Of a DNA stretch of 64,000 nucleotides, positions 8,862 through 33,441 are shown piece after piece. Positions within the stretch are counted from its first letter, which is position 1; each line of letters begins with the position of its first letter. A program made the position numbers and the translations under genes. Under the pieces are notes generated by a model. The model was not told the origin of the DNA. It was given only the letters and a program-made list of their open reading frames with translations, and ran no database searches. Source of the stretch: Notolepis coatsorum (lineage: Eukaryota > Chordata > Actinopteri > Aulopiformes > Paralepididae); contig OZ020594.1 in assembly GCA_963971535.1 (NCBI GenBank), forward strand, positions 115,727,127-115,791,126. Reading direction: 5' to 3'.

Positions 8862-9483
8862 ACATGACTGTGTGGCTAGGTTCAGCTCCAACTCCATAGT
8901 GAAGTTTGCGGACGGATACAGTGGTGGTGGGCCTGATCTCTAAAAATGACGAGAAGGCCTACCGGGAGGACGTTTATGTCCTGGCACTCTGGTGCCGGGA
9001 TAACAGCCTACTCCTGAACATTGGTAAAACCAAGGAGCTGATCGTAGATTTTAGGAGAATACAGCAGGGGACACACACGCCACTGTGGATTAATGGGGCT
9101 ATCGTGGACAGGGTGAGCAGTTTTAAGTACCTGGGAGTCCACATTACAGAGGACTTGACATGGACAACACACACAGACACTGTGTTAAAAAAGGCGACGC
9201 AGCGCCTCTACCACCTGAGACAACTCAGGACATTCAGAGTATCAGGGACGATACCCCACTCCTTCTATTTCGGGGCTGTGGAGAGCATCCTGACTGGGAA
9301 CATCACTGCCTGGTTTGGCAACTGCACTGCCCAGGACAGGAAGGCTCTACAGAGAGTAGTGTGCTCAGCAGAGCGTACTACGGGTATTACACTACCAACC
9401 CTGCAGGACTTGTACAACAGGAGGTGCAAATCCAGAGCCTGCAAAATAATGAAGGACCCTCACCACCCCAACAATAGCCTGTT
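8862..9483 (+). pseudogene. L2-like LINE (family B) RT fragment, 5' half of split copy
   Basis: From CTGTACACACATGACTGTGTG (RT motif LYTHDC) the frame reads into [11 protein letters not shown], then a small indel at the catalytic FADD box shifts the frame. The following frame (from about 8906) encodes VVVGLISKNDEKAYREDV, FKYLGVHITEDLTWTTH and ILTGNITAWFGNCTAQD, up to HHPNNSL. At the GTT of 9481-9483 the LINE is interrupted by the DIRS-like element copy A and resumes at 15041 with KLLRSGKRLRI. The copy is inactive: it is 5' truncated, frameshifted at the active site and split. Confidence 0.85.
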
Positions 9484-9680
9484 CTGTGTCGTATGGCTCT
9501 CGCTCGGCGTCACTCTCTGCACTGTACCTCGCCTGTGCACGCGCACTGAATAAAAATTCCACAATGTACCTTTACATCCCAATATTCGTCTGACCACACC
9601 CCTATCAGCTTACCTTCATAAGCAGGTGTGTGGCCACCTACTCGCCTCCTTCTTCGCTTTCACCACAAGGAAGTGCCTTG
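9481..9680 (+). repeat. Left inverted terminal repeat of DIRS-like copy A
   Basis: Inverted relative to 14833-15037. Shared segments include tcagtgcgcgtgcacaggcg, ggaatttttattcagtgcgc and aggtaagctgatagggg in opposite orientation. The matching segments also occur at both ends of copy B. Confidence 0.85.
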
Positions 9681-9789
9681 GTAGATCCCCACTTGACGAG
9701 GTTGCTAGTTGAAGAAAGTTGAGACATGTTTACATTGTGCTTATTTTTTTCTTCTCTCATAAATATTCAAGAGAAAAATCTAAGTAATA

Positions 9790-11444
9790 ATGTCTACCTC
9801 GGAGAGTCGTAGACCCACTCTTCACCAGCGGTTTTCCATTCCCGCCTCCGTCGTGCCTTCTGGTGCGGGGCTGTTGCCACTTTCGTGGTTGCCAGCCAAG
9901 CCCGGGAGACAGCCGATGGGTAGTTTGCCTCTCCGAGGAGCCGGTGCACCGGTGCCGTCGCCCCGGCGATGGCCTGGTCCCGACTCTGGTTCCTCTGCTT
10001 CCGGGGAATCGTCCGTTCTTGAGCGGCCGGTTCCTTTGGTCCCGGAGGACTTTTCGCGTCTGCTCGTTCACGTCGCAAGATGGTGTCCTGCAGACGCGAA
10101 CGGCCTGGGTTTGGGGAATTGCTGGAGACCAGCGAGGATGCGTCGGTCTCTGCATGCCCTATGGAAACTGAGGATTACATGGTAGAGTCAGACGGATTTT
10201 TGTTTGAAGGCCCAGTGGAGGCGAGTATCCCACCCGTCCAGGTAACACTGGATGGGGGTGAAATGTCTCCTTGGGGCGCTTTGTTCGAGGATGTCGGGGA
10301 ACCACCTCGGCCTCATCGGCAGGATGCCCTGCTATCAGCCACATCAGACTGTGGCTCCTCAACCGGTCGAAGCCTGCTGCATGTGAGGGATGCGGGTTCG
10401 GTGGAGGAAGGTCTGCAGGGGGAACTGCAGGCTTAGTTCCCCGAGCTCATGGCAGTAGCGGCCGCTGCAAACGGCGTGCCGCTGCCGCAGCCATTGCCTG
10501 CTCCTGCCCCCGATGATCTCATAGGTCATCTCTGGCAGCGTCGCCCGGTGAGAGGGGTGGACGTTGTCTACCCATTTTTCCCCTCAATGGGGGCCTATGT
10601 TCGTCGGGGCCAGGTGGTGTCTCACATGGGCCTTACTCCCGCCTACGTACCAGTTACGCGGGTGGCGGGGTTGGTTGAAGGTATGAGAGAGGGTGTGCCA
10701 CGGCTTGATAGGCCGATGGCCGCTCTCCTCTGTCCGGATGTGGTGTGGGAACCATTATGCAAGCCGGTTCTCCAAGGAAAATCGGCTAGGCGATTGGCGT
10801 ATTGGAGTGACCAGTCGTTCGTCACGGGTACACAGTCGCTGGCTGCTGCGTCTAATGTCGCACAGCTGGCTAGATTTGTATCTGGGATAATGACGGGCGG
10901 CGCGGAGCTGACCGCGGTACAACATGATCAGCTCACCCAGGCGGCAGGAGCTGTCCTGCATCTGACTCAGGTGCAGGCCATAGCCGCTGGGAAAGCGCGC
11001 GCCCTGGCTACTCTGATCCAGCGCCACCTTTGGCTGGAGCAGGCCCGTGTGCCAGAGAAGAAGAGAGCCCCTCTTCTGACGGCACCCCTCTCCGATGCTG
11101 GACTGTTCGGGAAGGCCCTGCAGCTGATGACCTCAACATGCAGAGAGATGGCAGAGGAGAGATCCGTTCTCCAACCCCATTTTCCGCTTCCCGTCCTCGC
11201 CGGTGGAGTCAGAAGGCTTCCACGACGTCGAGCTACCTCCGCTGTGCCTACCACTGCCTCCGCCGCCACTGCTGGCCCGTCAATGAAGGCCAGGAGGAGA
11301 GACGGTGCTACTGCTGCAGCCGGCCCATCTACGACCGGAGGAGACGGTAGGGATCGACGAGACCAGCAACCGATTGCCTACCGTCCCTCCGGGGCTTCTC
11401 GGGGTGGCAAAGCCCGAGCGGCTCGAGGCAGCAGACGCCGCTAA
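9790..11444 (+). pseudogene. DIRS-type gag, broken
   Basis: This is the homologue of the intact gag of copy B (33133-31460). It starts MSTSESRRPTLHQRFSIPAS, aligned with MYSAESRPARPTLHHRFSIP of copy B. Relative to copy B it has lost about 13 bp near 10048, which shifts the frame, and it has an in-frame TAG at 10434-10436 just before the segment beginning MAVAAAANGVPL. The remaining 331-codon part (10449-11444) is open and contains the DIRS-gag-like block RHLWLEQARVPEKK, then APLLTAPLSDAGLFGKAL, and an Arg-rich C-terminus (ARAARGSRRR). A Gag protein would package the element RNA; this copy cannot make the full product. Confidence 0.8.
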
Positions 11445-11509
11445 AATACAGTGACTTTTTCCCCTGTGGTCCCCTCTGTACCCCTCCTCGGCCCTCTCAT
11501 ATAAATTTG

Positions 11510-11553
11510 TTGCCTAAATAAAAAGTCCCCTAAAAGGGGGACTGTATTTTTTG
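11510..11553 (+). promoter_or_regulatory. Conserved hairpin and AATAAA after DIRS gag
   Basis: About 70 bp after the gag stop, AATAAA is followed by AGTCCCC-TAAAAGG-GGGACT and a run of T. A comparable GTCCCC/GGGGAAC hairpin followed by A/T homopolymer occurs at the matching place in copy B (31338-31375). Conservation between the two copies suggests a 3' processing or termination role; this is inference. Confidence 0.45.
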
Positions 11554-11604
11554 GCTAAACAAACTGTGTTCTTCACCAAAACATATGATGAGGTTGCGAA
11601 ATGT

Positions 11605-11692
11605 GAATCTGCATTTAAGGCCCATGGGGACATTAACGTGTGTTGTCGGGCCTTATAAATAAATTTGATTTGATTTGATTTGATTCATTGTA
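11605..11692 (+). mobile_element. 3' fragment of (TTTGA)n-tailed retroposon, inserted in DIRS A
   Basis: The segment ggcccatggggacattaacg, then tgttgtcgggcc, ATAAATAAA and a (TTTGA)n tail matches the 3' end of the repeats at 44791-45693 and, inverted, at 42071-42322. Copy B of the DIRS-like element lacks it, so it is a later insertion. Confidence 0.8.
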
Positions 11693-12474
11693 TACATTGA
11701 GGGATGAGTTACGTTCGTGTTATGAGATTAAGCAAGGTCTGCAGCATACACTCAGTTATAGAAAGGTTTCTATCTTGGCCTGACGCTCCACATGCAGGTA
11801 GAAGCTGGTTGTATGATCTGTTGCTTACACGCAAAGTAAGGTTGATCCACAACACTGTTGTGTTAGTTGCAGTAATACTCGTATACACACGTTCCACGGC
11901 CTAGCCGTTATACTCTCTGTCAGTGTTTTTCTTTGTACAACATGGGATGCGGGTGTAGGATTCACACACACATACGACTTGGTTTTGTTGTAAAACCCTG
12001 TTCACAGTCTGTGGGTAGCGTGCATTGTATTAGCTTGCGCTATGCATTAGCATTCTACCAAAGGTCTCATATGCTACAGTTGTTATTGTGTGTAGGGGGA
12101 AGGGTTTTTGTGAGGGGGTGCCGAATAAACCCCTCCTTCCCACTTGATTGGTCAAGGGGGTTTTCTCATCTCCTGTTGGGCCAGTCAGAGCCAAGCCGTT
12201 CAACACCTTGGCTGGGGAGGGGGGGGGGGGGAAGGGTTGTCCTGACGCGGCTCCTATTACAAACAGGAGTTGTGTGCAGGGTTTCCCCCCGTCATAGCAT
12301 ACGAGTACGTTGCTATGACGACGGCTTCCGTGAGTTAGATCTTTACGTAAGGTCTGTGGTGTCAAAGTGTCGGGTTAGAGCGTAGGGCTTACGGGTCTGC
12401 TACGCTCGATTTATGTGTAACTTGAGTCAGTTGGTCACGTGACTCGCAGTTGCCATGTCTTTTTCATGCTATGC

Positions 12475-12688
12475 ATATGTTTGTCTCAAGGCTCTGTACC
12501 ATTATTACTATCTAAAATGTAATAATTGTGGAATATTATTACTGTAATGAGCTGTATGTGTATGATCCAAGCATCCTATGATCCTCATAGGAGCATAACA
12601 GAAAAAAGCATTCCATGTGAAGGTATTCTGTATCTTTGCATGTCAACTAATAAAGAAACTTGAAACTTGAACTTGAACTTGAACTTGC
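12475..12688 (+). mobile_element. Short L2-type LINE 3' end, inserted in DIRS A
   Basis: It ends with ATGTCAACTAATAAAGAAAC and an (ACTTGA)n tail like that of the L2 copies at 7500 and 24020. It is absent from the matching place in DIRS-like copy B. Confidence 0.75.
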
Positions 12689-13478
12689 TACGACTCATGT
12701 GGGAAGGCTTTCTGGGGAATTTCGGTCTAAACCCTCTAAGTAAGGGGTGACTGGATGTAAAAATATAAATAGTTTTTACTCCCGGCTGTGCAGACTGGGA
12801 TTCATGCTGTGGGTGCTTCCTTCTTTTTTATTAAAAAGAGTTGGGGTTAGGAAGCATCAAACCCCTCTTGTCGTTCCCCTGGGCGCCTTGGGGATTCAAT
12901 GACAGGTCTAACTAGCCTGTTTATTGATGTGGTTGTGTCCCGACGCACGCATAGTGCTAGCTCGGGGTGTTCTGTTGAACATCAGGCGACTGACTGGCGC
13001 GCCTTGGTTGCTTGGGGTTAAAACAGCGTTTTTATAAAGCAACTGGGATGGAGGTTTTTCCTCTTCCGACGACCTGTGTTGGTTGTCAACGGATTCTCGT
13101 TCATATCTGGGGGATGATGACGGAATGGATCTGAACATATGTAGAGGGGTCTCACGCCCTGGGGGTGGGCCACCGGGCGTGGTTCGCACCGAACGGCTGG
13201 GTGGCGCCTTCTTTTCATGTTTTAAGATCAACACGCATATCTGCCCCTTCTCCTGGAGTAGGCATGTCGGCGTGGTTAGGGCACGGGACTGGTTCTGGTC
13301 ACGCTGGTCCGGATCAGTTAAACCCGTTGTCCGCCGGGGATGCAGATCTGCTGTTCTGGTACCCTGAGGGACTTGGGCTTTTTTCAGGGGGAAAAAATGC
13401 CAGGTCGGTCCGGGTGTCACAGGGTTAGGCGCTATGGAGACCCTTGTTGGGGATTTTGTACTCCGCACTGTCGTAATG

Positions 13479-13597
13479 GCTTACGGCCATGCCAACCTGT
13501 ACACGCCCGATCTCGTCAGATCTCGGCCGCTACGCAGGTGGGTCCTGGTTAGTACTTGGTTGGGAGACCGCCTGGGAATACCAAGTACGGTGTGCTT
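13479..13597 (+). ncRNA. 5S rRNA-derived sequence inside DIRS-like copy A
   Basis: These 119 bp align over their whole length with vertebrate 5S rRNA. It begins GCTTACGGCCATGCCAACCT and continues with ACGCCCGATCTCGTCAGATC. The internal promoter end GGTTAGTACTTGGTTGGGAG is present, followed by ACCGCCTGGGAATACCA. Differences from the canonical gene, for example GGCCGCTACGCAGG in place of the usual GGAAGCTAAGCAGGG, are shared with copy B. It is therefore a captured 5S sequence inherited by the element family rather than a ribosomal locus. The downstream box is well kept, but whether RNA polymerase III uses it is unknown. Confidence 0.88.
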
Positions 13598-14745
13598 GGG
13601 GCTGGTTCTCCATTATTTTCGCTCTTCTCTCACGCATGGCGAAGAGGGGCCTGTTGGGGTGGTCTTTGACCTCCTCGGGTGACCCTGTGCTTCCCGTATC
13701 GCCGGGCCCAGTCCGAAGTAATGTTTCGTCGACCCGTAGGCCTGGGATAAGCCTGTTGGAAACTGAAACACTTGTCCTGCGGTAGTATGCCCGCAGGTAT
13801 GTTTTGGAGTTTTTTCTTGAGGGGTTATAGGACCAACCACTGCATAGGGTAACGACAGGGTGGTTGGTTCTCTGGTGTGTTGGAGCAGAGTCAACTCCCG
13901 GGTTACCAGGTTGAGTGTGCCCCTGCATGTTCATGACATCTGCCAATCGTGTCAGCCTTCGCTGCCTCATACCCGCTGTTTTTTTTTTTTTTAACAGAGG
14001 CTTTGTCATGGTGATCAACAACGCCAGCATACGCCCCTTCCGCCGGGGCGGCTGTTTTCAGCTGACCCCTCTGGCGCCTGTCTCGTCTGCAGTGCTCCAG
14101 GCTCAGGTTACAGCCTGTTGCCTGGTTTCCCCGGTGCGCTGCCTGCTTCCGTTGGTAAACCTTTTTTGTGCTTACGGCCATGCTGACTGCCTGTGCTGCA
14201 GGGTCAGTGTGCCAGGCGGTGTGCTATTGGGGGGAAAGGGCCCGCTCTTGAGAGGGGCCTTATCCGAATACGCTGGCGATGTGGGGGGCGGTGTCACTAA
14301 GTGACCACCTGGTGGGGTCTTGATGCCTGGCGTCATTGACCTCTCCGGGCCCCCGTTTTCCAGGGGATCCAGTCCCTTTGGTGGGTCTGGGTCTTCCTTC
14401 ACGCTCCGCTGCTACGGCCTTGCCACGGGGTTGGGTTTGCTCTTGACCCCGTGATTTCTGGGGGCAGTAACGAGGTTGTTCCTTCCGTTCGTTCCCGGGT
14501 GGCATGCGGGTTGTGCGTGTGTGTAGTCGTGGGGTCAGGCCACGGTCTGCTCACCCTGTGCGTTGAGTTGCTTGAGTGCCTCTTCGCACGGTCGGGTCCG
14601 TCGCCCTCCCGGGAACCTCCAATAGGGGGGGTGCCCTCCATTAGGGGGGGTCGGGGGGGCTCGGTCCTCCCTGATCTGATGGTTGTGGGGGGCCTCAGCG
14701 GGGTGTATTTGTCGGCCGATGGCTCTCTCTTGGCCTCCCTTGTGC

Positions 14746-14815
14746 AGAGAGTGACGCCGAGCGAGAGCCATACGACACAGAGTAATGTGAGTAATGGTGA
14801 CGCTCGGCGTCCGAC
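14746..14815 (+). repeat. Internal complementary region of DIRS-like copy A
   Basis: GAGAGTGACGCCGAGCGAGA and the bases after it are the exact complement of the element's left end. They are followed by GTGAGTAATGGTGAC, the complement of its right end. About 30 bp around the expected GTT junction are missing compared with copy B (28384-28470). Such a region is a hallmark of DIRS elements. Confidence 0.8.
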
Positions 14816-14832
14816 GCCGCTGCAGCCCTTGA

Positions 14833-15037
14833 TCTCACCTTGTGGTGAAAGCTTGGGAAGGAGGCGAGTAGGTGGCCACACACATGCTTATGAAGGTAAG
14901 CTGATAGGGGTGTGGTCAGACGAATATTGGGATGTAAAGGTACATTGTGGAATTTTTATTCAGTGCGCGTGCACAGGCGAGGTACAGTGCAGAGAGTCAC
15001 CATTACTCACAGAACTTGGTTATAGTCATAACCTATC
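14833..15037 (-). repeat. Right inverted terminal repeat of DIRS-like copy A
   Basis: It is inverted relative to 9481-9680 and ends with an extension (AGAACTTGGTTATAGTCATA, then ACCTATC) before GTT. The same extension occurs at the matching end of copy B (28132-28165, inverted). Confidence 0.85.
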
Positions 15038-15040
15038 GTT

Positions 15041-15166
15041 AAAGCTGCTGCGGTCAGGCAAGCGCCTCCGCATACATGCAGCAAGAACAGAGAGACTCAG
15101 ACTCAGCTTTTTCCGACAGGCCATCAGAACACTTAACACTGATCTCTCCACACACAAGCACACATG

Positions 15167-15214
<48 letters not shown>

Positions 15215-15515
15215 CTCTCTCACAAACACACTACAAAAAAGGTCACTTTAAAAAACACAACTGTATATTTGTATATTATTATATATAGTATAGTACTCTG
15301 TACTCATTAACTTTAATTCTTAAGCTTAGCATTGTATAGTATTTTATCCGTATTACTTGTTATCATGTCTATTTTATTATCTATTCTATTTTATTATTCT
15401 ATTTTTGCACAATCAAGGCGGGCATGGCCACCTTCATTTCACTACATGTCTCGTGTATGTATGTGACGAATAAATCTCTTGAAAGAACCGTACTCCCGTT
15501 GTGTTTTTTCTTGAA
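15041..15515 (+). pseudogene. L2-like LINE (family B), 3' half of split copy
   Basis: The LINE frame resumes directly after the DIRS-like element with AAAGCTGCTGCGGTCAGGCA (KLLRSGK). It continues RLSFFRQAIRTLNTDLSTHK to a TGA at 15165-15167. A (CA)n tract (about 15170-15209), an AT-rich 3'UTR and an AATAAA followed by a CTTGAATCTTGAA tail complete the element. Joining across the insertion at a single GTT keeps the reading frame, which fixes the insertion point. Confidence 0.85.
15169..15209. repeat. (CA)n microsatellite
   Basis: About 20 CA dinucleotides in the 3'UTR of the L2 copy. Confidence 0.95.
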
Positions 15516-15885
15516 TCTTGAAATGGGACATACATTTTTTGTAACATATATTTTTACCTTATGTTATAGGATCCATTTAGTAGTAAATGGAAATTGAAAT
15601 GGCTGGAAAGTACTGATGGGTAATTTCTTTTGGTGATATAATGCAAATCTTTTTTGCATTTCATGTGAGATTTAAAATAAAGTTAGATTTATTGGAATAT
15701 GGAGATTTTTTTCAGATTCATCACAGTATTATGTCACCTTGAAAATTATGGTAATGAGAATCATGGAAAAACATTCATAGAAAGAATGAATGGGGATATA
15801 TTTAGAAAGGTTTTGCCTAGTCTTTGCATGATTTATTTCAAGAATCTGTATGAACACTGAAGATGGATTTACCCTTTAGAGCCTT
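15516..15885. other. AT-rich intronic sequence
   Basis: No gene or recognisable repeat seen. Confidence 0.4.
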
Positions 15886-15887
15886 AC

Positions 15888-16032
15888 CTCCTCCTTCATT
15901 CACAGATCCTTTAAGTCCTGGTGTTTTAATGCAGTCCACCAAGTAGACAGACAGCTCCTTTAGTTCCAGCTAAGAGAGGTGACTGCGAGATGCCATCTCC
16001 TCCACTGTACTGGAGATCAGTGGGGCTGTGGC
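15888..16032 (-). CDS. Exon 2 of candidate acidic zinc-finger-type protein gene
   Basis: Minus-strand exon between acceptor TTTTTAG (AG at 16034-16033) and donor GGAG|GTAAGG (GT at 15887-15886). It encodes ATAPLISSTVEEMASRSHLS, one in-frame TAG (15972-15970), then LELKELSVYLVDCIKTPGLK and GSVNEGG. Its phases (0 at the start, one base left at the end) match both the exon at 17913-17824 and the exon starting at 1586. The TAG lies in cctctcttag, itself a good splice acceptor, so a shorter exon from 15969 would keep frame and avoid the stop. Otherwise the stop marks a pseudogene or a sequence error. The product is unknown; similar segments occur in my memory in teleost multigene families. Confidence 0.6.
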
Positions 16033-16204
16033 CTAAAAACACCAGATAAAAAACAGTAACAATAAGAGTCTTGCAAAGTACAACGTTCACTTTCCCCAGA
16101 GTAATTGTAGATTGACGGGTTTGGCTGAGTGTTTATTTTTTATTTTTATGTTAGACATGTCTTGTCAGTGGTACTTGATGGTGAGAATGTCACCTTAAAG
16201 GGAT

Positions 16205-17110
16205 AGTTCAGAGTTGTGGACATCAAGTGGTGAAATTAAATAGTGGTGAAAAGAAAATCTGGATGAACCACAACCTTCTTCAACTCAACAGTACTAAAAC
16301 TGAAATCCTTCTAATAGGCCCACTTCACCTTCTCCGTAAAAACCCTGACTGCTCCATATCCATCAACAACCACTCTATCCTCCCCTCCCCCACAGTGAAA
16401 AACTATTCTAGGGGTGCTCCAGTAGCACACCATGTTACCGCGCTGCGTCGCGGGACTCCGTGCTGCGTCACGGATCTGGTTGACTCCGAGTTCGATTCCC
16501 GGACTCGCCGTCATTTGCCGAATGTCTCCCCCTGCTCTCTCTCCCGTTTCACCCTACAACTGTCGGTCATGCTTGACCAGAAAAGCGATAAACGCTAAAA
16601 AGTAAAGTTTAAAAAAAAAGGAAAACTATTCTATTTGACCCCAAACTATAATTCGAACCACACATCAATAACATCATCAAGATATGATACTTTCACCTCA
16701 GGAACATTTCCCGCATTAGGTTCCTGCCCTCATTTTCTCCCATCTAGAGATTATTGTAATGCATTGCTCAATGGATCAACATCTAAATCCCTCCATAAAC
16801 TTCAACTAGTTCAGAACACCTCAGCCCGCATCATCACCCGCTGGCAAGTTCTCCCACATCACACCTGTCCTCTCCTCACTACACTGGCTCCCTGTTAAGT
16901 ATAGGATTGACTTTAAGATCTGTCTTCTCACTTACAAAGCCCTCCACTCCCTAGCACCTGCCTACATCTACACCATCCTTCAATACTACACTCCCGCCCA
17001 CTCACTCCGCTCATCCAACTTAGCCCTTCTGAGCACATCACACTACTGCCTTAGTTAAGTCCACAGAAAACAAATCATTCTCCGACTCGGCTCCCCGAAT
17101 GAAAATAAGT
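16205..17110 (+). pseudogene. Degenerate LINE RT C-terminal region
   Basis: The frame from 16227 reads IWMNHNLLQLNSTKTEILLI and SISINNHSILPSPTVKN, a well-known RT thumb/C-terminal motif of fish LINEs. After the SINE insertion at 16410-16621 it continues through several frames (FEPHINNI, YFHLRNISRIRFL, DYCNALLNGSTSKSLHKLQL, ARIITR). Multiple frameshifts show that it is dead. Confidence 0.8.
16410..16621 (+). mobile_element. tRNA-derived SINE
   Basis: A roughly 210-bp unit starts ggggtgctccagtagcacac, carries a B-box-like gagttcgattccc at about 16489-16501 and ends in an A-rich tail. It is flanked by a target-site duplication AAAACTATTCT (16399-16409 and 16622-16632). It interrupts the LINE frame at that exact place, which confirms the borders. 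Confidence 0.85.
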
Positions 17111-17125
17111 TCTAACCAGAGTGCA

Positions 17126-17530
17126 AATGTAACAGATAAAGTATATATACAGATCAACTTGGGATTGGTCGCTCCCTGTTCAGGAGACTCAGGCGTATAC
17201 AAGTCTATTGGATCATGTCTCCAGCACCCCCACAGCCGTAGCTAAAACCACTTAATGTCAAGGCTCTCATCCACATTCATTCATTTTCTCCCCCGCTCTC
17301 TCCCCCGAGCTCAATGTAACACTGAAGTGCAGTGGTCTATAGAGTGTAATGGCATGCCTTCACCTGGAGGGGGACTCTAGGCTAAGTCCGTTGACCCTTA
17401 ACCTCTCACTATAAATGAGACCCAGCCGTGTTGTGTGTGCTCTCTCCTGTACCCTGAAGATGATTAATAAACGTGCACAAACTACTAGTTGGTGTCTGTT
17501 GATTGAATGGGACTAAGCTAAGATACTACA
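17126..17530 (+). mobile_element. Possible solo LTR
   Basis: The stretch has a TATA-like ctcactataaatgagac at about 17407 followed, 60 bp on, by AATAAACGTGCACAA (17466). It starts near TGTAACA and ends near TACTACA. The promoter-then-polyA spacing is typical of an LTR. No matching second copy or target duplication was found. Confidence 0.4.
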
Positions 17531-17823
17531 CTTATGTTGATCTGATAAACATATTACAAACAAATTGACAATGAATGTCTTTACAGCTACACACAGCTAT
17601 CAGATGCAGCTTCCGGTATCGGGAGAAATGTAACATTATTGTGAAGAGAATTACGTCGCTGCAGATGCTAGCAGTTAGGTAAAGTACTACGAATGTAAAA
17701 CATTTGGATTTTTTTACGATTAAGCTGTGATTGTACAACTTCAAGGCTCCTTTCGATCGCCGTGCTGCTGCAAGCTAGGAAGGAGCAATAAGAGGAAAAC
17801 AATGTGAACATAATTGTACTTAC

Positions 17824-17913
17824 AGATGTTGTGGTGTCCACAGTCTGATCTGTTTCCACAAGAAGAAGGTTTTGATCCAGATGTGAAGTCTTGGTCCAGT
17901 ACAGTTCTGCCAC
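17824..17913 (-). CDS. Exon 1 of candidate acidic zinc-finger-type protein gene
   Basis: Minus-strand ATG at 17913 opens a 30-codon frame, MAELYWTKTSHLDQNLLLVE then TDQTVDTTTS. It ends at a consensus donor ACATCT|GTAAGTA (GT at 17823-17822), phase 0, which fits the exon starting at 16032. The 5' half of the exon is part of a 62-bp duplication (17862-17923 and 17924-17985); in the upstream copy the corresponding ATG is destroyed. The upstream side (18000-18240) would be 5'UTR/promoter, followed by the 65-bp CRE/YY1 repeats. Called as a host gene only through the agreement of three exon phases. Confidence 0.5.
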
Positions 17914-17985
17914 AGAGACGTTAGAAGAAGGTTTTGATCCAGATGTGAAGTCTTGGTCAAGTACAGTTATGCCACAGAGACGTTA
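17862..17985. repeat. 62-bp tandem duplication
   Basis: Two copies of gaaggttttgatccagatgt plus its following 42 bp, about 95% identical, overlap the start codon of exon 1. Confidence 0.9.
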
Positions 17986-18235
17986 GAAAGAGACTAGTTT
18001 AATTGTGTCCAACATGTCTCTCTGGTCCGACTCACAACAAAGGTCTGGATCCTTGATCTGGTTCACACTCTGGTTAAAAGTCAGTAATGTTTGCACGGAG
18101 GAGTTGACAGTGACCGATAACACATGTGTTGTGTTTAACTTGTCCTTGATAACGGGTTTGTACAGAGAAGCGAGTTAAAAGCTCCTCATTGTAAATAGTC
18201 TGGCTGTAGAAACGTTTGCTGCTAACAGTGATGCA

Positions 18236-18495
18236 CAGCCATCTTAGATGACATCACGCCCCTGGTAACTCGCTCCGGTCGCCCCGTAGGCTCCTCCCCT
18301 CAGCCATCTTAGATGACGTCATGCCCCTGGTAACTCGCTCCGGTCTCCCCGTAGACTCCTCCCCTCAGCCATCTTAGATGACGTCACGCCCCTGGTAACT
18401 CGCTCCGGTCGCCCCGTAGACTCCTCCCCTCAGCCATCTTAGATGACGTCATGCCCCTGGTAACTGGCTCCGGTCGCCCCGTAGACTCCTACCCT
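18236..18495. promoter_or_regulatory. 4 x 65-bp repeat with CRE and YY1-like sites
   Basis: Four exact-period copies start at 18236, 18301, 18366 and 18431. Each has CAGCCATCTT (reverse complement AAGATGGCTG, a YY1-type site), TGACGTCA or a one-base variant (CRE/ATF palindrome), and a GC-rich ctcctcccct. The array lies just upstream of the predicted exon 1 on the minus strand. A promoter role is inference from position and motifs. Confidence 0.6.
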
Positions 18496-18539
18496 TGGTT
18501 GAATCACGACATCTGTGAGCTCAGACTTATTATTATCAT

Positions 18540-18776: not shown

Positions 18777-18830
18777 TCGCAAAACAGAGGCAATGGAAAT
18801 CTTCCAACCTCCAAGCATAGATATATATTT

Positions 18831-19663: not shown

Positions 19664-19721
<58 letters not shown>

Positions 19722-21252: not shown

Positions 21253-21254
21253 GG

Positions 21255-21723: not shown

Positions 21724-21725
21724 GG

Positions 21726-24048: not shown

Positions 24049-24486
24049 GTTCCACAAATCATGTTCAACCCAGATAAAATAATTTAAAAAGTAAAAAAAA
24101 AAAAAAAAAAAAATTAATAAAAGAAAATAGTCATAACTTAGAAATGAGATTGCATAGGTCTATGAATCGATATCGCGATTCTGTTTCGATTAATTGCCCA
24201 GCCCTACAGTGCGTACAGTAAGTTAGCTTGGTGATTATCATTGTGATGTAGGCTAAGCTGGCTAGCTACTGTTAGCATACAAGCACTGTAGCCTACTTAC
24301 TTTTTCATCCACAACGTTTTTTCTGATCCAGATGCATAAGTCCACTTCTTCATGTTGCTCAGTTGCTGGTTTATACTTCGGTCCTAATGTTGGCGCAAAG
24401 TTTAATTTAGCCTGACTTGACTTGTTATAGCTGTACAGCTTACTAACTACTAAACAACAACTTTCTCATAGTCTCAACTTTCATAT
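24049..24486. other. Non-coding stretch
   Basis: A-rich tract at about 24090-24110; otherwise nothing recognised. Confidence 0.4.
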
Positions 24487-24740
24487 AGTCAAAACGGGTC
24501 CAGCTGCATGTCCGGAGGATAGGTTTAGCTCGGGCCAATCTCAAGTTTCTCAAGTTTCTTTATTAGTTGTCATACAGAAGTACAGAATACTTTTATACAA
24601 AATGCTTCTTTACTGTATGTTACATTTTGTATAAAAGTATTCTGTACTTCTGTATGACAACTAATAAAGAAACTTGAGAAACTTGAGATTGGCCCGAGCT
24701 AAACCTATCCTCCGGACATGCAGCTGGACCCGTTTTGACT
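24487..24740. repeat. Perfect 118-bp inverted repeat with 18-bp spacer
   Basis: The left arm 24487-24604 is the exact reverse complement of the right arm 24623-24740 (checked base by base). The inner ~80 bp of each arm is an L2-type 3' end (ATTCTGTACTTCTGTATGAC, then AACTAATAAAGAAACTTGAG). The outer ~40 bp (AGTCAAAACGGGTCCAGCTG and following) is non-LINE flank. Both therefore are duplicated in inverted orientation. Confidence 0.95.
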
Positions 24741-26148
24741 TTGCAATGCAGCAATCTCTGATTGGATTTGCAAGGCTGCCAATCATATTCAACCTCTGTG
24801 TATTGGATGTCAAGGGCTGTCAATCAATCAATCAATCCTCCATTCAATGGCAAGAGTTTAACTGCACAGACCGTGCTTAGATGAAGTTAATAGCCTATTT
24901 TGATTCGCTGTTATTTATTATTTATTTAACAATGGGTCACACCTGTGAAGTTTTCTTCATGAATAATTACTGCAGTGCAGGCCTGCTCAGAGTTGTCAAT
25001 TTTTGAAGAAAAAAAAATTCACTGGCATTTTTTTTACAGAGGAAAACATTTATAATAAAAAAAATAATAATAATAAAAAAATAATATATATATATATAGT
25101 TTTATTTTTTTTATATATATATAGGTATATGTAAATTAATAATAATTATGAATTATGAGTGAATTTGTGTTTCACGTGTTGTCATAGAGAAACCTCCACT
25201 GGTATATACAGTACTCGAGTTGTGAAAAAAAAAACAGGGGGGATGATCAAGGCTGCAGATCTCATGACAAGTTTGGGGGGGATGCAGAGTAGGGAGGTCC
25301 GGGGGCATCGTCCCCCGGTAGAACATTTGAATGATTTGAATACGCAAATGAAGCTTTTAGGAGTATTTCGAAACTATAATTACAGAGTGGGAGTAGATAC
25401 ACTACTTTTGATAGCACATATTATTGGGGGGGACAATTCATATTTTTCTGACGATTAGCTGACACAAATGCTAGCCTGGTTAAAGACATCCAAGTCCTCA
25501 TGGTTTAGCTAGCTACGTTAGTTAACTATTGATAGATAACTTATTACATAATAATATGATATTGTAAGGAAGGGGCAGGACCAGATAAGCTTTGCTTCTT
25601 TCTGTCCCTTCTCAAACAAAACCATTTGTCTTGAGCTATGTTGATTATTGCTTCCATAGGAAGATATATTTAATTGTATTTGTATTTGTATTTTATTTCG
25701 TTTTAGTTTTTTTTGTTATTACAAATGTGTGTGTTTATGGTTGAAAATGTTAGAGATAAATAAAGATCAAATCAAATCTAACTGATGAAGTGATCCCTCT
25801 TCTAACGAGAGAAAAACGTAGCTTAGCTTTAAACTCATTCATTGCTTATGTCTAAAATACAGTCTATGCAGCTATGCACAGTTCACGCAGGAGGCACATT
25901 TATTCCTAATAACATTATTTATTGTTAACTTTTGTCAGACACAGCCACAATTGAGAACATAATATCTCTCACGTAGCAAGTGAGAAAATTAAGAACAATT
26001 TCAGCAAATGTACTAAATATGTCAAACTTAAATGTAAAAATGTCACATACTGTTTGAACACAACAAAGCCACAGCCACTGGATTACAAGATTTACAGTGC
26101 AATGAAAATATACCTTTTTCTTTTTCAAATGACAGTGTAGCCAAGACA
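24741..26148. other. AT-rich non-coding region
   Basis: It holds low-complexity ATATAT/TTTTTA tracts at 25010-25140. A LINE 3'-end-like segment ends at about 25785 (AAATAAAGATCAAATCAAATC). No gene is recognised. Confidence 0.4.
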
Positions 26149-26152
26149 CCAG

Positions 26153-27963
26153 GGCCCTCATTTATCAATTTTTCTTAGAAAATGTTCTATTTCCATACTT
26201 AAGCACAGAATTTAGAATGTGTGCACGCACACAAAAAACGGGATTTATCACACGTGCGTACACAGGTCCTACGCACACCTGTCATGATAAATATCACCTT
26301 GCTCTATACGCTAAGGCTCGTGCACACTTTCACGTATTTGCATACCAGAACCGCCCCGATTAACCATATACGGTAATGGAACACCCCCGTGAAATGTGGA
26401 AAAGTGGACTAACCCGAGCGAACTCTGAGAGACTTCACTGAGAGCGAGATTGATCACCGAGGTCCAACCAACAAATTGAACGTATAATCTTCGGTGCGCC
26501 GGGAGCCAAGGATGTTGACTGACCCAGTCCTGCTACAGAACCAGCACATTGACAGAAATAAATGACAAGATGACCCGACATTAAGCACTGTAATGACTGA
26601 AATTAAATCAATTTCAGCAGGCCAACTCTGCGCTCTACAATGCCTATTATGTGCGCTCGTCATGAGCCCGTGGTACTTCTGGTCAGTCATTATGGCTTCA
26701 GTGGATAACCCTGATCTGCATTGTGATGTTTTAGATACCCCAGATATAACATTACAATTGAATTAAATGCAATTAAGCCTGAATGAGACTCCGGCCACCG
26801 GCACATTATCAGCCAAAATGCGCATCGCGGATTATCTGTACATTGACCGAGTGGAATCCCGTTCACATTACTGGATTTGTTTATTGATGGAGCAAACTGA
26901 GAGATTGTTCACAGAGGCGCTGCCGAACCAAGATATAATATGATGTGTATAATATAATGTGTGTAGAGGCATATGATACAATCTATTTTGTTGTTGGTAT
27001 TGGGTAGCCTATATGAATTACATATAATAGCAGCCAACCTACATTATGCAACAGTAATTTGCGCATATAACACACAGCCCTGTGAAGCCTGCATACAGTA
27101 AACTAACTTGATCATTAATCTAGCTGTTGTATCTTTATTCTTTACGCTTATGAAAACATTAAATAATATGTATAGGCCGTCGCTTTAGCCTATATTCTCA
27201 AATGGCTATCCGAGTCCTCGATATCCTCGCGGACGGACCAGTATACCTTTATATCATATCATATTCATATTCATATCATACTTTACTCTATCAGCCTACC
27301 AGCATGTAATACGTTCTTTGTTAGAATTCAACTCGTTATCATTTTGCGCATAGATTGCAGAAATACCGGAACGTTTTGATTTAGGCTTTGACATTGTAAA
27401 ACTAAATAAGTGAACTTCTGTAAGCAGAATACAAGTCATGATATCACCCACACGATATATACTCTGTGTCCAGAGCATGTATGCTTTTCATTCATTTAAG
27501 ACACATTTATTGCAAGGGTTTTGTCTACACATACACTCAACAAATAACCTCAGTCTATTCTCGTTGCAATGCGTTTTTTATTCTTTCTTATAGGAAGGGT
27601 GAAGAACACTATATCGTGGGTGTTCATATGACTTGTATTCTGCTTACAGCTTCGGGGTTCCACTTATTACGTTTAACAATGGCAAAGCCTTTTAAATATA
27701 ATCAAAACGTTCCCGTATTTCTGCAATATATGCGCAAAATAATAACGAGTTGAGTTACGTGGAGCGCAGTCAGTGCTTATTTCCTTGTTGTAATAATATA
27801 TTCTACCACCGGCGTCAACTACGCATGGTCCGACCTGTGCTTAAATATACGCACAAAGTCAAGCACAAGTTCAAATTGATAAATCCCACACTTTGCTTAG
27901 AAATGATCGTACGCACGGGTTACGCACATATCTGTGCGTACGTCACGATGATAAATGAGGGCC
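26153..27963. mobile_element. Harbinger-like DNA transposon, non-autonomous
   Basis: Terminal inverted repeats GGCCCTCATTTATCA (26153-26167) and TGATAAATGAGGGCC (27949-27963) are flanked by a CAG trinucleotide on both sides (26150-26152 and 27964-27966). This fits PIF/Harbinger insertion. Sub-terminal regions share GTGCGTAC and CGCACA motifs. The 1.8-kb interior has no open frame above 95 codons and no transposase motif I can see, so it is non-autonomous or decayed. It contains a nested inverted repeat (27325-27757). Confidence 0.7.
27325..27757. repeat. Imperfect ~140-bp inverted repeat within Harbinger-like element
   Basis: Arms at about 27325-27463 and 27610-27757 share, in opposite orientation, CAACTCGTTATcATTTTGCG, TTGCAGAAATAC, GAACGTTTTGAT and GTAAGCAGAATACAAGTCAT. 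Confidence 0.75.
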
Positions 27964-28383
27964 CAGGTGTAGGTCTCTTACTGAACAATCAGTGTTTTTC
28001 TCATCTCACCCACGTCTAGACACACATCACCAAGAGAGAATTGTACACAAAAATAGAGATCATTAAAGTTCTGTGAAGCTGAGAAACATCCCATGTAGGC
28101 TTCATTTTACTCACTCATATCACGCAGAAACGTTAGGTTATGGCTATAACCAAGTTCTGTTAGTTAGGGGTGACGCTTGGCATCACACTGCACTCCCTCG
28201 CGTACGTGCACGCGCACTGAATAAAATTCCACAAAATATACATTTAATACCAGTATTAGTCTGACCACACCCCTCATCAGCTTACCTTCATAAGCAGGTG
28301 TGTGGTCACCTGCTCTCCTCCTACCCAAGCTTTCACCACAAGGTGAGGTCAAGGGCTGCAGCGGCCGTCTGATGCCAAGCGTC

Positions 28384-28470
28384 ACCCCTAACTAACAGAA
28401 CTTGGTTATAGCCATAACCTAACGTTCTGTTCCGTTAGGGGCTCTGCTTGGCATCACACTGCACAAAGGG
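28384..28470 (-). repeat. Internal complementary region of DIRS-like copy B
   Basis: The plus strand reads ACAGAACTTGGTTATAGCCA, then TAACCTAACGTTCTGTTCCG, then TTAGGGGCTCTGCTTGGCAT. This is the sequence of one element end, a GTT, and the other end joined together. It reproduces the head-to-tail junction expected of a circular intermediate, as in DIRS elements. Confidence 0.85.
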
Positions 28471-29212
28471 AGGCCAAGCGGAGCCGCTGGCTGACAAATA
28501 CACCCCGCTGACAGCCCCCCACAACCATCAGAACAGGGAGGGCCGAGCCCCCCCGACCCCCCCTAATGGAGGGCATCCCCCCTATTAGGGGCTTCACGGG
28601 AGGGCGACGGACCCGACCGTGCGAAGAGGCACTCAAGCAACTCAACGCACAGGGTGAGCAGACCGTGGCTTGACCCCACGACTACACCCACGCACAACCC
28701 GCATGCCACCCGGGAACGAACGTAGGAAACAACCTCGTTACTGCCCCCAGAATCACGGGCTCAAGGGCAAACCCAACCCCGTGGCAAGGCCGTAGCAGCG
28801 GAGCGCGAAGGAAGACCCAGACCCACCAAAAGGACTGGACTCCCTGGAATGGGGGCCCGGAGAAGTCCATGATGCCAGCATCAAGACCCCACCAGGTGGG
28901 CACCTAGTGACCCCGCCCCCCACATCGCCAGCGTATTCGGACAAAGGCCCCTCAGCCGAGCGGGCCCTGTCCTCCCCAACAGTACACCGCCTGGAACACA
29001 GGCCCTGCAAAAAGCAGACAGCATGGTCGTAACACACAGGAGTAAACCAACGGAAGCAGGCAGTGCACTGGGAAAAAGGACCAGGCAACAGGCCGTCAAC
29101 CCAAGCCTGGAGACTGCGGACGAGGCAGGCGCCAGAAGGACAGCTGAACACAGCCGCCCCGGCGGAAGGGGCGTATGCTGGCGTTGTCGCATAACCAAGC
29201 CTTTAAACAGCA

Positions 29213-29319
29213 TGTCAGAAGTGGGATTCAACCCATGCCTCTAATCAGAGACCAGAAGCCCCATTGCCATGGAAGGTTCACCTTGAGTCTGGCTCCTTAG
29301 ACCACTCGGCCATCCTGAC
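29213..29319 (-). tRNA. tRNA-Leu(CAA) pseudogene with intron, inside DIRS-like copy B
   Basis: On the minus strand the 5' half reads GTCAGGATGGCCGAGTGGTC, then TAAGGAGCCAGACTCAAG with anticodon CAA. About 24 bp of intron follow, then TTCTGGTCTCTGATTAGAGG and a 3' end ATCCCACTTCTGACA. The acceptor stem pairs perfectly (GTCAG...CTGAC) and A is the discriminator. The T arm is damaged: the B box lacks one base (GGTTGAATCC instead of GGTTCGAATCC) and the stem has an A-C mismatch, so it is probably inactive. The intron shows that it derives from a gene or pre-tRNA. Copy A has no counterpart at this place. Confidence 0.85.
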
Positions 29320-29686
29320 AGCTGCCCACAGAAAAGGCCCATACGATCGGCAGACGTCATGAACGTGCAGGGGCACCCTCAACCGGAGAACCGGGAGTTG
29401 ACACTGCAGCAACACACCAGAGAACCAACCACCTAGGCATTACCCCATGCAATGGTTGGTCCCATAACCCCTCAGGAAAGAAACCCCAAAACACACCTGC
29501 GGCACCGCCGCAGCCCGCGCTCTGGTTTCCAACAGGGCTATCCCGGGCCTACGGGTCAACGAACATTACCCCGGACCGGGCCCGGTGATACGGGGGGCAC
29601 AGGGTCCCACGAGGAGGTTAAAACCACCCCAACAGGCCCCTCAGCGCCAAGCGCAAGAGAAGAGCGTAAAAATGGAAGACCAGCCC

Positions 29687-29805
29687 CAGCACCCCGCACT
29701 CGGTATTCCCAGGAGGTCACCCAACCAAGTACCAACCAAGACCAACCCGCACAGCGGCCGAGATCCGACGAGATCGGGCGCGTACAGGTCGGCACGGCCG
29801 TAAGC
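29687..29805 (-). ncRNA. 5S rRNA-derived sequence inside DIRS-like copy B
   Basis: It is homologous over ~119 bp to vertebrate 5S rRNA and to the copy A sequence. The minus strand contains GCTTACGGCCGTGCC, GCGCCCGATCTCGTCGGATC, GGTACTTGGTTGGGTGACCT and CCTGGGAATACCGAGTG. It shares with copy A several departures from the normal gene (the GGCCGCT segment and the ACCTGTAC segment) and has further changes of its own. The capture therefore preceded the separation of the two copies. Confidence 0.85.
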
Positions 29806-30194
29806 CATTACGACAGTGCAGAATACAACGCACCTAACAAGGGTTCCATAACGCTCAACCCTGTGACACCCGGACCGACCTAGCATTTTTCCCCCTGAAA
29901 AAACCCCAAGTCCAGACCCATTCCGTCATCATCCCCTGACATGAACGGGAACCCATCGACAACCACACAGGGTGTCGGAAGAGGAAAAAACCCCCATCCC
30001 AATTGCTTCATAAAAACGCTGTTTCACCCAAGCAATCAAGGCGCGCCAGTCAGCCAATGCCCCAAAAGCACATCCTGAGCTAGCACTATGTGTGCGTTTG
30101 GACATACCCACATCAACAATAGGCCGTTTAGACCACCATATTGAATCCCCAAGACGCCCAGGGAAACGACAAGAGGGGCGAGATGCAATCAACT

Positions 30195-30365
30195 CCATGA
30201 ATGAATGAATGAAAAAGTTTACCCAACAGACTGCAGAAAGGGTACAACCCAGTACGGCAATACACACAATAGGTTAAGGGGAGGCAGACCTGAGAAAGAC
30301 GTTAGTCTTGTTTCCATCAGGGACCCTCATTTCCAATCCATCAGACACATTCAACTCTTTATAAA
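30195..30365 (-). mobile_element. LINE family Y 3' end inserted in DIRS-like copy B
   Basis: (TGAA)n tail, then gactgcagaaagggtacaac and gaggcagacctgagaaagac. It is related to the 3'UTR of the LINE at 61263. Copy A lacks it. Confidence 0.8.
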
Positions 30366-31337
30366 AATAAAGAAAAGGCATCACCCGTATGACCCAACTG
30401 CACAGCTGGGAGTAAAAACCCTGTTTTTCACATGATTCCAATCCAGTCACTCTTTTTAATCAGAGTGTAAGACCAGACCCTCCCAGAAACACCTTCCCAC
30501 ATGAGACTAAGGTCAAGAAAAAGATATGTAAACTGTGAGTCACGTGACCAATTGACTCAAGTTTGACACATAAACCGGGCGCAGCAGAACTGTGAGCCCT
30601 ACGCCCAACCTCGACATCTTTAAGACACCAGCTCATGGAAGGCGTCGCCATAGCAACACCGCTACAACGGGCGGGGAAAACCTACCGGATCCTGTCATGT
30701 AACAGGAGTCGGTAGAATACCCCTCCCCCCCCCCCCCCCCCCCCCCCTTGCCAAGCACTGGCTTGGCCCTGACTGGCTCAGCAGAAGAGATCAAAAATCC
30801 CCTAAACCAATCAAGTGGGAAAGGAGGGGTTTATTCGACACCCCCTCCCGAAAACACACCCTTTATCCCTACACACAGAAAAACAACCGTAGCCATCTTG
30901 AAAAACCTCCGGTAGAAAGCAAAGCATAGCGAAGCTAATACAATGTCCGCTACACACAAAATGTGTAAAAGGTTTTACAACAAAACACAAGTCGCCTGTG
31001 CGTGAATCCTATACCCGTTGCCTATGTCGTACATAGGAAAAAACGCTGATCGAGAGTAAACGGCTAGGCCGTGAAATGTGTGCGTACGAGTATTACTGCA
31101 ACTAAACAACACAGCATTGTGAAACACATATACTTAGTTAAAGCAATGGAATAACACCAGTTCTAACTGCATGTGGAGCATCAAGCTAAATAGAACCTAT
31201 TACCGAGTGTACGTTGCAGACCTTGCTTAACCTCGTAACACAACACAACTCATCCCACAACGTAAAAAAGGGCAGATTCATATATACACAACCCCACCAT
31301 ATGATTTGTTTGAAGAAACACACAGTTTGTTCGGCCA

Positions 31338-31375
31338 AAACACAGTCCCCCTCCATCGGGGAACTTTTTTATTTA
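31338..31375 (-). promoter_or_regulatory. Hairpin after gag of DIRS-like copy B
   Basis: AGTCCCCCTCCATCGGGGAAC (read on the plus strand) folds into a short stem and is followed by a T run. It stands at the position of the copy A hairpin at 11524-11546. Confidence 0.4.
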
Positions 31376-31459
31376 ATAACTAAATCGTGTCAAGGCACAA
31401 AATCATAGAGGGGCCGGGGAGGGTGTAGGAGAGGGGACACAGAGGGGAAAAAGTCACTC

Positions 31460-33133
31460 TTAACGGCGTCTGCCACCTCGCGCCGCTCGAGTCTTGCCAC
31501 CCCGAGGAGCCCCGGAGGGACGGTAGGTTACAGTCTGCTGGACACGACGTTCCCTACCGTCTCCTCCGGTCTGGGATGGGCCGGCGGTGGCCGAAGCGCC
31601 ATGTCGTCCCCTGGCCCTCTTGGCAGGGCCAGCAGCGGCGGCGGAGGCAGTGGTAGCGGCGACGGAGACAGCTCGACGTCGCGGAAGCCTTCTGACTCCA
31701 CCGGCAAGGACGGGAGGCGGAAAATGGGGTTGGAGAATGGACCTCTCCTCTGCCATCTCTCTGCATGTTGAGGTCATCAACCGCAGGGCCTTCCCGAACA
31801 GGCCAGCGTCGGAGAGGGCGGCCGTCAGAAGAGGAGCTCTCTTCTTCTCTGGCACACGGGCCTGCCCCAGCCAAAGGTGACGCTGGCCCAGGGTGGCCAG
31901 GGCGCGCACTTTCCCCATGGCTATGGCCAGCACCTGGGAAAGGTGCAGGACAGCTCCCGCAGCCTGGGTGATCTGATCGCATTTCACCTCGGTCAGATCC
32001 GTGCCGCCCGTCATTATCCCCGATACAAATCTAGCCAGGTGGGCGATGTTAGACGCCGCAGCCAGCGATTGTGTACCAGCGATAAATGACTGGTCACCCC
32101 AATAAGCCAATCGCCTAGCCGATTTCCCCTGGAGGACCGGCTTGCATAGTGGTTCCCACACCATATCCGGACAGAGGAGCGCGGCCATCGGACTGTCAAG
32201 CCGAGGCACGCCCTCCCCCATACCTTTGACCAACCCCGCTACCCGCGTAACTGGTACGTAGGTAGGAGTTAGTCCCATGATGTTGGTCACCGCCTGACCC
32301 CGACGAACATAGGCCCCCATCGATGGGAAAAATGGGTAGACAACGTCCACCCCTCTCACTGGGGGACGCTGCCAGGGATGGCCTATGAGGTCATCAGGGA
32401 CAGGTGCAGGCAATGGCAGCGGCAGCGGCACGCCGTTTGCGGCGGCGGCTACCGCCATGAGCTTGGGAAACAAGGCCCACAGTTCCCCCTGCGAACCTTC
32501 CTCCACCGACCCCGCATCCCTCACATACAGCAGGCTGCGACTGGTCAAGGAGCCACAGTCTGATGTGGCCGACAGTAGGGCATCCTGCCGATGAGGCCAA
32601 GGTGGTTCCTCGACATCTTCGAACAGGGCACCCCATGGAGCCATTTCCCCCCCCTCCGGGGTCTCCTGAGGAGGGATACTCTCCTCCACGGGGCCCTCAT
32701 ACAAAAATCCGTCCGCCTCATCCATGAAGTCCTCAGTCTCCATTGGAAATCCCGAGCCGGACGCATCTTCGCTGGTCTCCAGCAGCTCCCCAAACCCAGG
32801 CCGTTCGCGTCTGCACGCCACCATCCTGCGACGCGAGCGAGCAGACGCGAAAAGTTTGCGTCGCAAATCCCCTGGCTCCAAAACAACCCCCCGTTCACCA
32901 ACGGGCGATTCCCCAGAATCAGAGGAACCAGAGTCGAGATCAGGCCATCGCCGGAGCGACGGCACCGAACCCTCGGCTCTTCGGTGAGGCAAACTATCCA
33001 CCGGCAGTCTCCCGGGCTGGGTCGGCAACCACGAGAGTGGCAACAGCCCAGCACCGAGGCACACGACGGAGGCGGGAATGGAGAACCGGTGGTGAAGAGT
33101 AGGTCTAGCGGGTCTACTCTCCGCGGAATACAT
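31460..33133 (-). CDS. DIRS-type Gag protein, intact
   Basis: An uninterrupted frame of 557 codons starts at MYSAESRPARPTLHHRFSIP. The frame is open upstream to another ATG at 33187. I prefer 33133 because the homologous gag of copy A starts at the equivalent methionine and the extra 18 residues lie in non-conserved leader. The N-terminal half is acidic and Ser/Pro rich. The central region has VDVVYPFFPSMGAYVRRGQ and the DIRS-gag-like block ATLGQRHLWLGQ...LLTAALSDAGLFGKALRLM. The C-terminus is Arg/Gly rich and ends ARGGRRR, plausibly nucleic-acid binding. Expected role: forming the particle that carries element RNA. It is the only coding gene of the element. Confidence 0.8.
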   Translation of the reverse strand: MYSAESRPARPTLHHRFSIPASVVCLGAGLLPLSWLPTQPGRLPVDSLPHRRAEGSVPSLRRWPDLDSGSSDSGESPVGERGVVLEPGDLRRKLFASARSRRRMVACRRERPGFGELLETSEDASGSGFPMETEDFMDEADGFLYEGPVEESIPPQETPEGGEMAPWGALFEDVEEPPWPHRQDALLSATSDCGSLTSRSLLYVRDAGSVEEGSQGELWALFPKLMAVAAAANGVPLPLPLPAPVPDDLIGHPWQRPPVRGVDVVYPFFPSMGAYVRRGQAVTNIMGLTPTYVPVTRVAGLVKGMGEGVPRLDSPMAALLCPDMVWEPLCKPVLQGKSARRLAYWGDQSFIAGTQSLAAASNIAHLARFVSGIMTGGTDLTEVKCDQITQAAGAVLHLSQVLAIAMGKVRALATLGQRHLWLGQARVPEKKRAPLLTAALSDAGLFGKALRLMTSTCREMAEERSILQPHFPPPVLAGGVRRLPRRRAVSVAATTASAAAAGPAKRARGRHGASATAGPSQTGGDGRERRVQQTVTYRPSGAPRGGKTRAARGGRRR

Positions 33134-33441
33134 TATGACCCAACCTTTTCTTGTACAACAGATGTGAGAGAAGAAAAAATTAAGCACAATGTAAACCAGT
33201 CACAACTCTTTTCAACTAACAACACGTCAAGTGGGGTACTACCGAGGCACTTCCTTGTGGTGAAAGCGAGAAGGAGGAGAGCAGGTGACCACACACCTGC
33301 TTATGAAGGTAAGCTGATGAGGGGTGTGGTCAGACTAATACTGGTATTAAAGGTATATTTTGTGGAATTTTATTCAGTGCGCGTGCACGTACGCGAGGGA
33401 GTGCAGTGTGATGCCAAGCAGAGCCCCTAACGGAACAGAAC

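Follow-up and report, generated by a model that had tools for sequence, protein, structure and literature searches.

Elements with DIRS1-type ends in the genome of Notolepis coatsorum carry a gag frame and a 5S rRNA-derived sequence and no recognised polymerase

How does a sequence derived from 5S rRNA come to lie inside a long retroelement in which no polymerase can be recognised, and does it serve there as a promoter? The question is raised by a 64,000-nucleotide stretch of the genome of the fish Notolepis coatsorum (GCA_963971535.1, contig OZ020594.1, positions 115,727,127 to 115,791,126; hereafter the window), in which two related elements, A and B, lie on opposite strands (Table 1). The reading favoured here, with a probability of roughly 0.66, is that they belong to a non-autonomous family with DIRS1 ends, which has gag only and is copied in trans, and that the 5S sequence was captured once, by a template switch, and is carried as a passenger.

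A and B align at 72-85% identity for the greater part of their length. The alignment takes in the inverted terminal repeats at both ends, the gag frame and the non-coding half, all of which the original prediction had described as common to them; the limits that it gave (9481-15037 and 28132-33441) were correct to within 3 bases, the ends now being placed at 15040 and 28129. Measured elements of the family are 4.95-5.56 kb long. The inverted terminal repeats are 96% identical over 163 bp in A, 94% over 192 bp in B and 90% over 194 bp in a further copy, e26; they were also found in L012, L022 and L030, and in part in L013 and L015. In B, the two internal complementary regions (41 and 63 bp) match the element ends with 0 mismatches in 40 bases and overlap by exactly 3 bp, AAC. 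A 3-bp overlap occurs in B, e26, L012, L022 and L030 (0-2 mismatches), that is, in five of the six copies with both ends found, giving a circular junction of AAC in B, e26, L022 and L030 and of AAT in L012. It is missing from A, in which the right internal complementary region is damaged. In DIRS1-like elements, NTT termini complementary to the junction are expected; the termini are GTT...GTT in A, B, e26, L012, L022 and L030 and altered at the right end in L013, and no right end was found in L015, for which the overlap was not scored. No target-site duplication was seen by eye at the flanks of B, L012, L022 and L030. Table 3 of PMC3266345 lists the stickleback elements GaDIRS1 and GaDIRS2 with GTT at both ends and an AAC junction; their right extensions measure 26-27 bp and the whole elements 5.3-5.8 kb. 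The ends of the A and B family are DIRS1-type, and the earlier designation "DIRS-like" is borne out by the termini, the inverted terminal repeats and the overlapping internal complementary regions.

The claim that A and B encode no polymerase holds as far as it was tested: three frames of the two elements had no match in Pfam, and their list of open reading frames contains no other long frame taken for a polymerase, short decayed remnants not having been searched for. Judged by frame length alone, the other copies read contain no frame for reverse transcriptase, RNase H and methyltransferase or for a tyrosine recombinase. The gag frame of B is open over 557 aa (33133-31463), and intact frames of about this length are present in 4 of the 13 gag-bearing copies looked at (B, L079, L081 and L013); the frame of L078 is open over the 419 residues covered, and that of A, L012, L015, L022, L030, L037, L077 and L080 is broken or interrupted. 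Between B and A, L012, L013, L022 or L030, the ratio of nonsynonymous to synonymous substitution rates (Ka/Ks) lies at 0.28-0.32 when read in frame and at 1.04-1.56 when read off frame. For comparisons inside subfamilies, where there are fewer changes, the in-frame ratio is 0.33-0.60, with off-frame values above 1 in 12 of 14 cases and of 0.70 and 0.76 in the other two. These ratios indicate that gag evolved under purifying selection between the two lineages. Since both lineages lack pol and have the non-coding half in common, their common ancestor would already have been pol-less, gag being selected thereafter.

The 5S-derived sequence is recognised in both elements over the full Rfam model RF00001 (positions 1-120; gathering score 38), at 13479-13596 on the plus strand (71.7 bits, E 3.6e-13) and at 29688-29805 on the minus strand (59.5 bits, E 6.2e-10), both matches being significant and above the gathering score, as the original prediction had led one to expect; all other Rfam families in A and B remained under their gathering scores. 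Identity to one host copy of the 5S gene (L001) amounts to 89.9% across 109 nt for A and to 82.0% across 111 nt for B, and the scored host 5S matches lie on C7, on C29 and, in one case, on C4. The sequence in A has 16 differences from the host gene, one of them a deletion, and 12 of the 16 are present in B, in keeping with the earlier statement that both copies depart from the canonical gene in the same way. When the query was a B-type segment without 5S, all 30 loci proved to carry it, 29 inside the cut and L087 just beyond the cut (98% identical), and the feared absence from most family members thus does not apply to the B-type loci; the 30 A-type loci carry it by construction of their query. 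Because its place and its changes are held in common, the 5S sequence appears to have been captured once, in an old event that preceded the spread of the copies, as had been proposed. RNA editing was considered as a source of A-to-G changes and rejected: A>G differences against B outnumber G>A differences by 23 to 4 at 13481-13880 and by 147 to 121 in the rest of the element, an excess that is local and weak outside the 400 bp around the 5S.

In the host genome, a 500-bp A-type query that includes the 5S gave 3977 first-look candidates and a 501-bp B-type query without it gave 1455. These counts are loose, 40 matches having been scored per query, and all 40 were 95-100% identical in the first case and 99-100% in the second. 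The matches are spread over many chromosomes and unplaced contigs, and the further copies anticipated by the original prediction are present as many dispersed, near-identical sequences. The candidate counts suggest thousands of copies in the genome. The family is large and young, every one of the 40 scored B-type matches having 99-100% identity across the 501 bp. For each query, 30 loci were extracted, the B-type set including B itself and its two local duplicates. Six further A-type copies, joined from overlapping stretches, have gag and the 5S half; both ends were read in four of them, L037 being interrupted before the left end and L015 lacking a clean right end. Copies of the e26 type keep the left repeat and the 5S-bearing right half, and about 2.5 kb of other sequence without a long frame replaces gag; L025, L024, L028 and L036 resemble e26 in the part read, the left repeat having been seen in e26 alone and not in the stretch of L025 that was read. 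L039 with L026 (C1:257964500-257971812) likewise has ends and a 5S half as in the family and about 2.5 kb of other sequence in place of gag. The 5S half is common to the subfamilies, and the left half varies and seems exchangeable, because gag is replaced by about 2.5 kb of other sequence in one of them.

B contains a second small-RNA-derived insert (29203-29325), which consists of a 6-nt leader, an intron-containing tRNA-Leu(CAA)-like sequence, the trailer TGCTGTTT and AA; ARAGORN did not detect the tRNA of B. A 33-base tRNA-Leu pattern has 572 exact matches in the host genome, and the matches listed lie, bar the first, in one array on C7. This tandem array of tRNA-Leu(CAA) genes runs from 38999452 with a unit of about 189 bp. 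The leader GCAGCT, the intron and the T-ending trailer of the insert match a gene of the C7 array with few differences, and the host bases beyond do not match. Among the 30 B-type loci, the tRNA site is empty in three (L059, L065 and L067), full in four (B, its two local duplicates and L058, hence two separate cases) and occupied by the same internally deleted remnant in 23, and the insert is found in none of the 30 A-type loci, 26 of which span the site. No target-site duplication distinguishes filled from empty sites. This distribution places the tRNA capture later than that of the 5S and on one branch, the B-type. The insert is best explained by reverse transcriptase template switching onto pre-tRNA, because it has the limits of an RNA polymerase III (Pol III) primary transcript, is unspliced and lacks a duplication, and the 5S fits the same model, since it starts at base +1 of the host gene.

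Table 1. Positions in the window of elements A and B and of their parts.
Feature	Positions	Strand	Remark
Element A, whole	9481..15040	+	5560 bp, GTT...GTT
Left inverted terminal repeat of A	9481..9670	+	
gag of A, frameshifted	9790..11444	+	Open from 10449
Non-coding part of A, includes 5S	11445..14741	+	
5S rRNA-derived sequence of A	13479..13596	+	RF00001, 71.7 bits
Left internal complementary region of A	14742..14781	+	Reverse complement of 9483-9522
Right inverted terminal repeat and right extension of A	14838..15040	+	
Element B, whole	28129..33441	-	5313 bp, GTT...GTT
Left inverted terminal repeat of B	33253..33441	-	
gag of B	31460..33133	-	Intact, 557 aa plus stop
5S rRNA-derived sequence of B	29688..29805	-	RF00001, 59.5 bits
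Putative secondary capture in B, tRNA-Leu(CAA)-like	29203..29325	-	123 bp
Left internal complementary region of B	28424..28464	-	0 mismatches, 40 bases tested
Right internal complementary region of B	28364..28426	-	0 mismatches, 40 bases tested; 3-bp overlap with left, AAC
Right inverted terminal repeat and right extension of B	28129..28343	-	

Element A also contains two insertions, at about 11615-11686 and 12471-12686, both of which are missing from several other A-type copies. The stretch with A and B is present three times on C29 (about 115.37, 115.55 and 115.74 Mb), at distances of about 180-193 kb; the query matches of both elements are near-identical in the three stretches, which probably represent a recent segmental duplication. 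Elsewhere in the window there are a perfect 118-bp inverted repeat with an 18-bp spacer (24487-24740) and two like tandem-repeat blocks about 3.7 kb apart (46250-47660 and 50120-51300; units of 68 and 89 bp).

In the favoured reading, an autonomous DIRS element would presumably supply the reverse transcriptase and the tyrosine recombinase that copy and integrate the family in trans, gag would probably be made from RNA polymerase II transcripts of the element and may help to package that RNA, and the long non-coding half would occupy the place of pol. The 5S would most likely have been gained when reverse transcription switched template from element RNA to 5S rRNA, and on a later branch an unspliced pre-tRNA-Leu may have been captured in the same manner. 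The 5S would be a passenger or, at most, would give rise to a short 5S-like RNA or act as its binding module, and would not be the promoter of the element genome.

Several points weigh against this reading. The frame was named gag from its position and its basic C-terminus, not from homology; it has no match in Pfam, none among 8000 scored database candidates and no credible one in the PDB (best E 1.6), and a single-sequence structure model of it was poor (mean predicted local distance difference test score 39). Gene conversion with an autonomous element may account for part of the signal of selection on gag. The 3' limit of the element 5S is too diverged for sharp placement, and no empty 5S site was found among the loci examined, so that the case for capture of the 5S from RNA is made by its 5' limit and by analogy with the tRNA. 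As to the tRNA, a second host tRNA-Leu gene compared, on C4, has no leader in common with the insert, and the two A at the end of the insert are unexplained. Finally, the search for an autonomous partner gave none: of the 53 matches to Pfam integrase, five loci were read (L082-L086), which we take to be Crypton-like. As a separate observation, L085 has a tyrosine recombinase frame of 419 aa (4169-5425), presumably Crypton-like as well, and frames of exactly this length recur in 9 of the 53 integrase matches and probably form a young family.

A bolder version, tentative at best, generalises the process: DIRS particles would take up Pol III primary transcripts and their reverse transcriptase would switch onto them, so that a gag-only parasite would repeatedly gain intact small-RNA units, and the 5S core of the B branch might be kept for a short 5S-like RNA or for 5S-binding proteins that aid export or packaging. 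Alternatively, both pieces could have entered at the DNA level, through recombination or gap repair with the 5S and tRNA arrays as donors. Both donors are indeed abundant as tandem arrays (5S on C7 and C29, and the many exact tRNA-Leu pattern matches), and the intron shows that the source of the tRNA piece was not a mature tRNA. However, both inserts end at transcript limits where these can be judged, without further array spacer, and capture from DNA is therefore considered unlikely.

The 5S could also have arrived at the head of a SINE3-type short interspersed element (SINE) that inserted into a DIRS ancestor and was afterwards shortened. SINE3 elements occur in fish, which speaks for such an origin. 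In addition, Kojima proposes a SINE3 origin for the 5S-carrying element Ajax and cites the same for Cassandra (PMC10886601), and a SINE3/5S class is named in PMC5753468. However, no flanking duplication was seen by eye around the 5S, which is nearly full length, and no SINE body was found downstream of it by Rfam and reading, no further search having been made, which leaves this origin improbable.

Finally, the family might be a Pol III parasite in which the internal promoter of the 5S is a working part that drives needed transcription, as in Cassandra. In its strongest form, Pol III transcription of a gag-bearing parasite, this part of the original prediction fails. The 5S lies on the strand of gag, starts 1.7 kb (B) or 2.0 kb (A) beyond the gag stop codon and is 3.6-4.0 kb away from the left end of an element of about 5 kb, so that a transcript from it would lead away from gag, and it is followed by 8 (A) or 9 (B) runs of at least four T before the right end, the first of them 15 nt (B) or 19 nt (A) beyond the Rfam end. 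Pol III drive of gag is rejected on these grounds, and the expected Pol III product would be a short RNA of about 140 nt and not a genome. A run of at least four T is present within the 55 nt scanned after the 5S in 27 of the 30 A-type loci, which would suit a Pol III unit; however, 30-40% of 55-nt non-coding segments contain such a run by chance, and it was rejected as a terminator signal.

The near-complete length of the 5S also favours a retained promoter. Taking the box limits of the 5S promoter, including the core at positions 50-97, to be those of Xenopus, box A and box C carry ancestral changes, and in the intermediate element there is no change in A and one in B. In 26 B-type rows (L047, L048, L063, L057 and L065 left out, B kept), 1 of 47 core sites is variable against 56 of 313 in the flanks (Fisher p 0.004), and B-type copies differ pairwise by 1.6% in the 5S, compared with 2.6 and 2.2% in the flanks. 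In contrast, the promoter is not conserved in the A-type, where 28 distinct rows have 9 of 47 variable core sites against 72 of 383 in the flanks (p 1.0) and the 5S is about as divergent as its flanks (2.6% against 2.1 and 2.6%). With opposite results in the two sets and p values uncorrected for multiple testing, promoter conservation is mixed, a lead and not a finding. Selection on 5S structure was also considered, a first simulation giving p 0.0016 (0.005 with more transitions) from A-type to B and 0.33 from host to A-type, and was dropped when simulations that kept the mutation spectrum put base pairing at chance level (p 0.18 and 0.59, respectively); their alignment placed one deletion otherwise than in the list of 16 differences, giving 15 host differences. 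Taken with the position of the 5S behind gag, these results make a working Pol III promoter quite improbable. Chance or an assembly artefact, to which the location of A and B in a locally duplicated stretch of C29 might point, is hardly credible and is refuted by the finding of copies across many chromosomes and unplaced contigs.

Among known systems, the TR-GAG elements of plants are also gag-only, non-autonomous retroelements, and differ from the present family in having direct long terminal repeats (LTRs); they are not known to have captured small RNAs. SINE3 elements are short, carry the 5S at their head and depend on long interspersed elements. They resemble the family in that a 5S rRNA-derived sequence is spread through retrotransposition, whereas the 5S described here makes up a short stretch in the interior of a DIRS-type element of 5 kb, with no duplication seen by eye. 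Cassandra of plants and Ajax of nemerteans are described in PMC10886601 and PMC10853983 as 5S-carrying terminal-repeat retrotransposons in miniature (TRIMs). They are likewise non-autonomous retroelements with a 5S rRNA-derived sequence, but they are short and bounded by direct LTRs that hold the 5S, whereas the present family has inverted ends and an internal 5S downstream of the gag frame. The closest match in architecture is to the DIRS1-like elements of fish (GaDIRS1/2), tabulated in PMC3266345, with which the family has in common the GTT...GTT termini, the AAC junction, inverted terminal repeats with a right extension, internal complementary regions and a length of about 5-6 kb. Unlike them, it has no visible reverse transcriptase/RNase H/methyltransferase or tyrosine recombinase frame, and it carries the 5S and, in one branch, a tRNA-derived sequence. 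The family is accordingly filed as a non-autonomous derivative of DIRS1-like elements and not as an autonomous member.

Within titles and the beginnings of abstracts in mostly open-access literature, a scope that does not extend to Repbase, no description of a 5S sequence in a DIRS-type element was found, and the phrase "non-autonomous DIRS" does not occur in the full-text literature searched, also mostly open-access. The word "DIRS" is absent from the main text of Kojima's article on 5S- and tRNA-carrying TRIMs (PMC10886601), and no such element appears in the portions available of PMC12294053, PMC10138776, PMC5753468 and PMC9210276. The pieces are of known kinds, 5S capture being on record for LTR elements and SINEs, and their combination in a DIRS-type element appears to be new within this literature. 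Selection on gag in elements that lack pol would mean that gag itself is useful to the parasite. In addition, the filled, empty and partly deleted pre-tRNA sites open a way to test capture in the course of DIRS reverse transcription, about which little is known.

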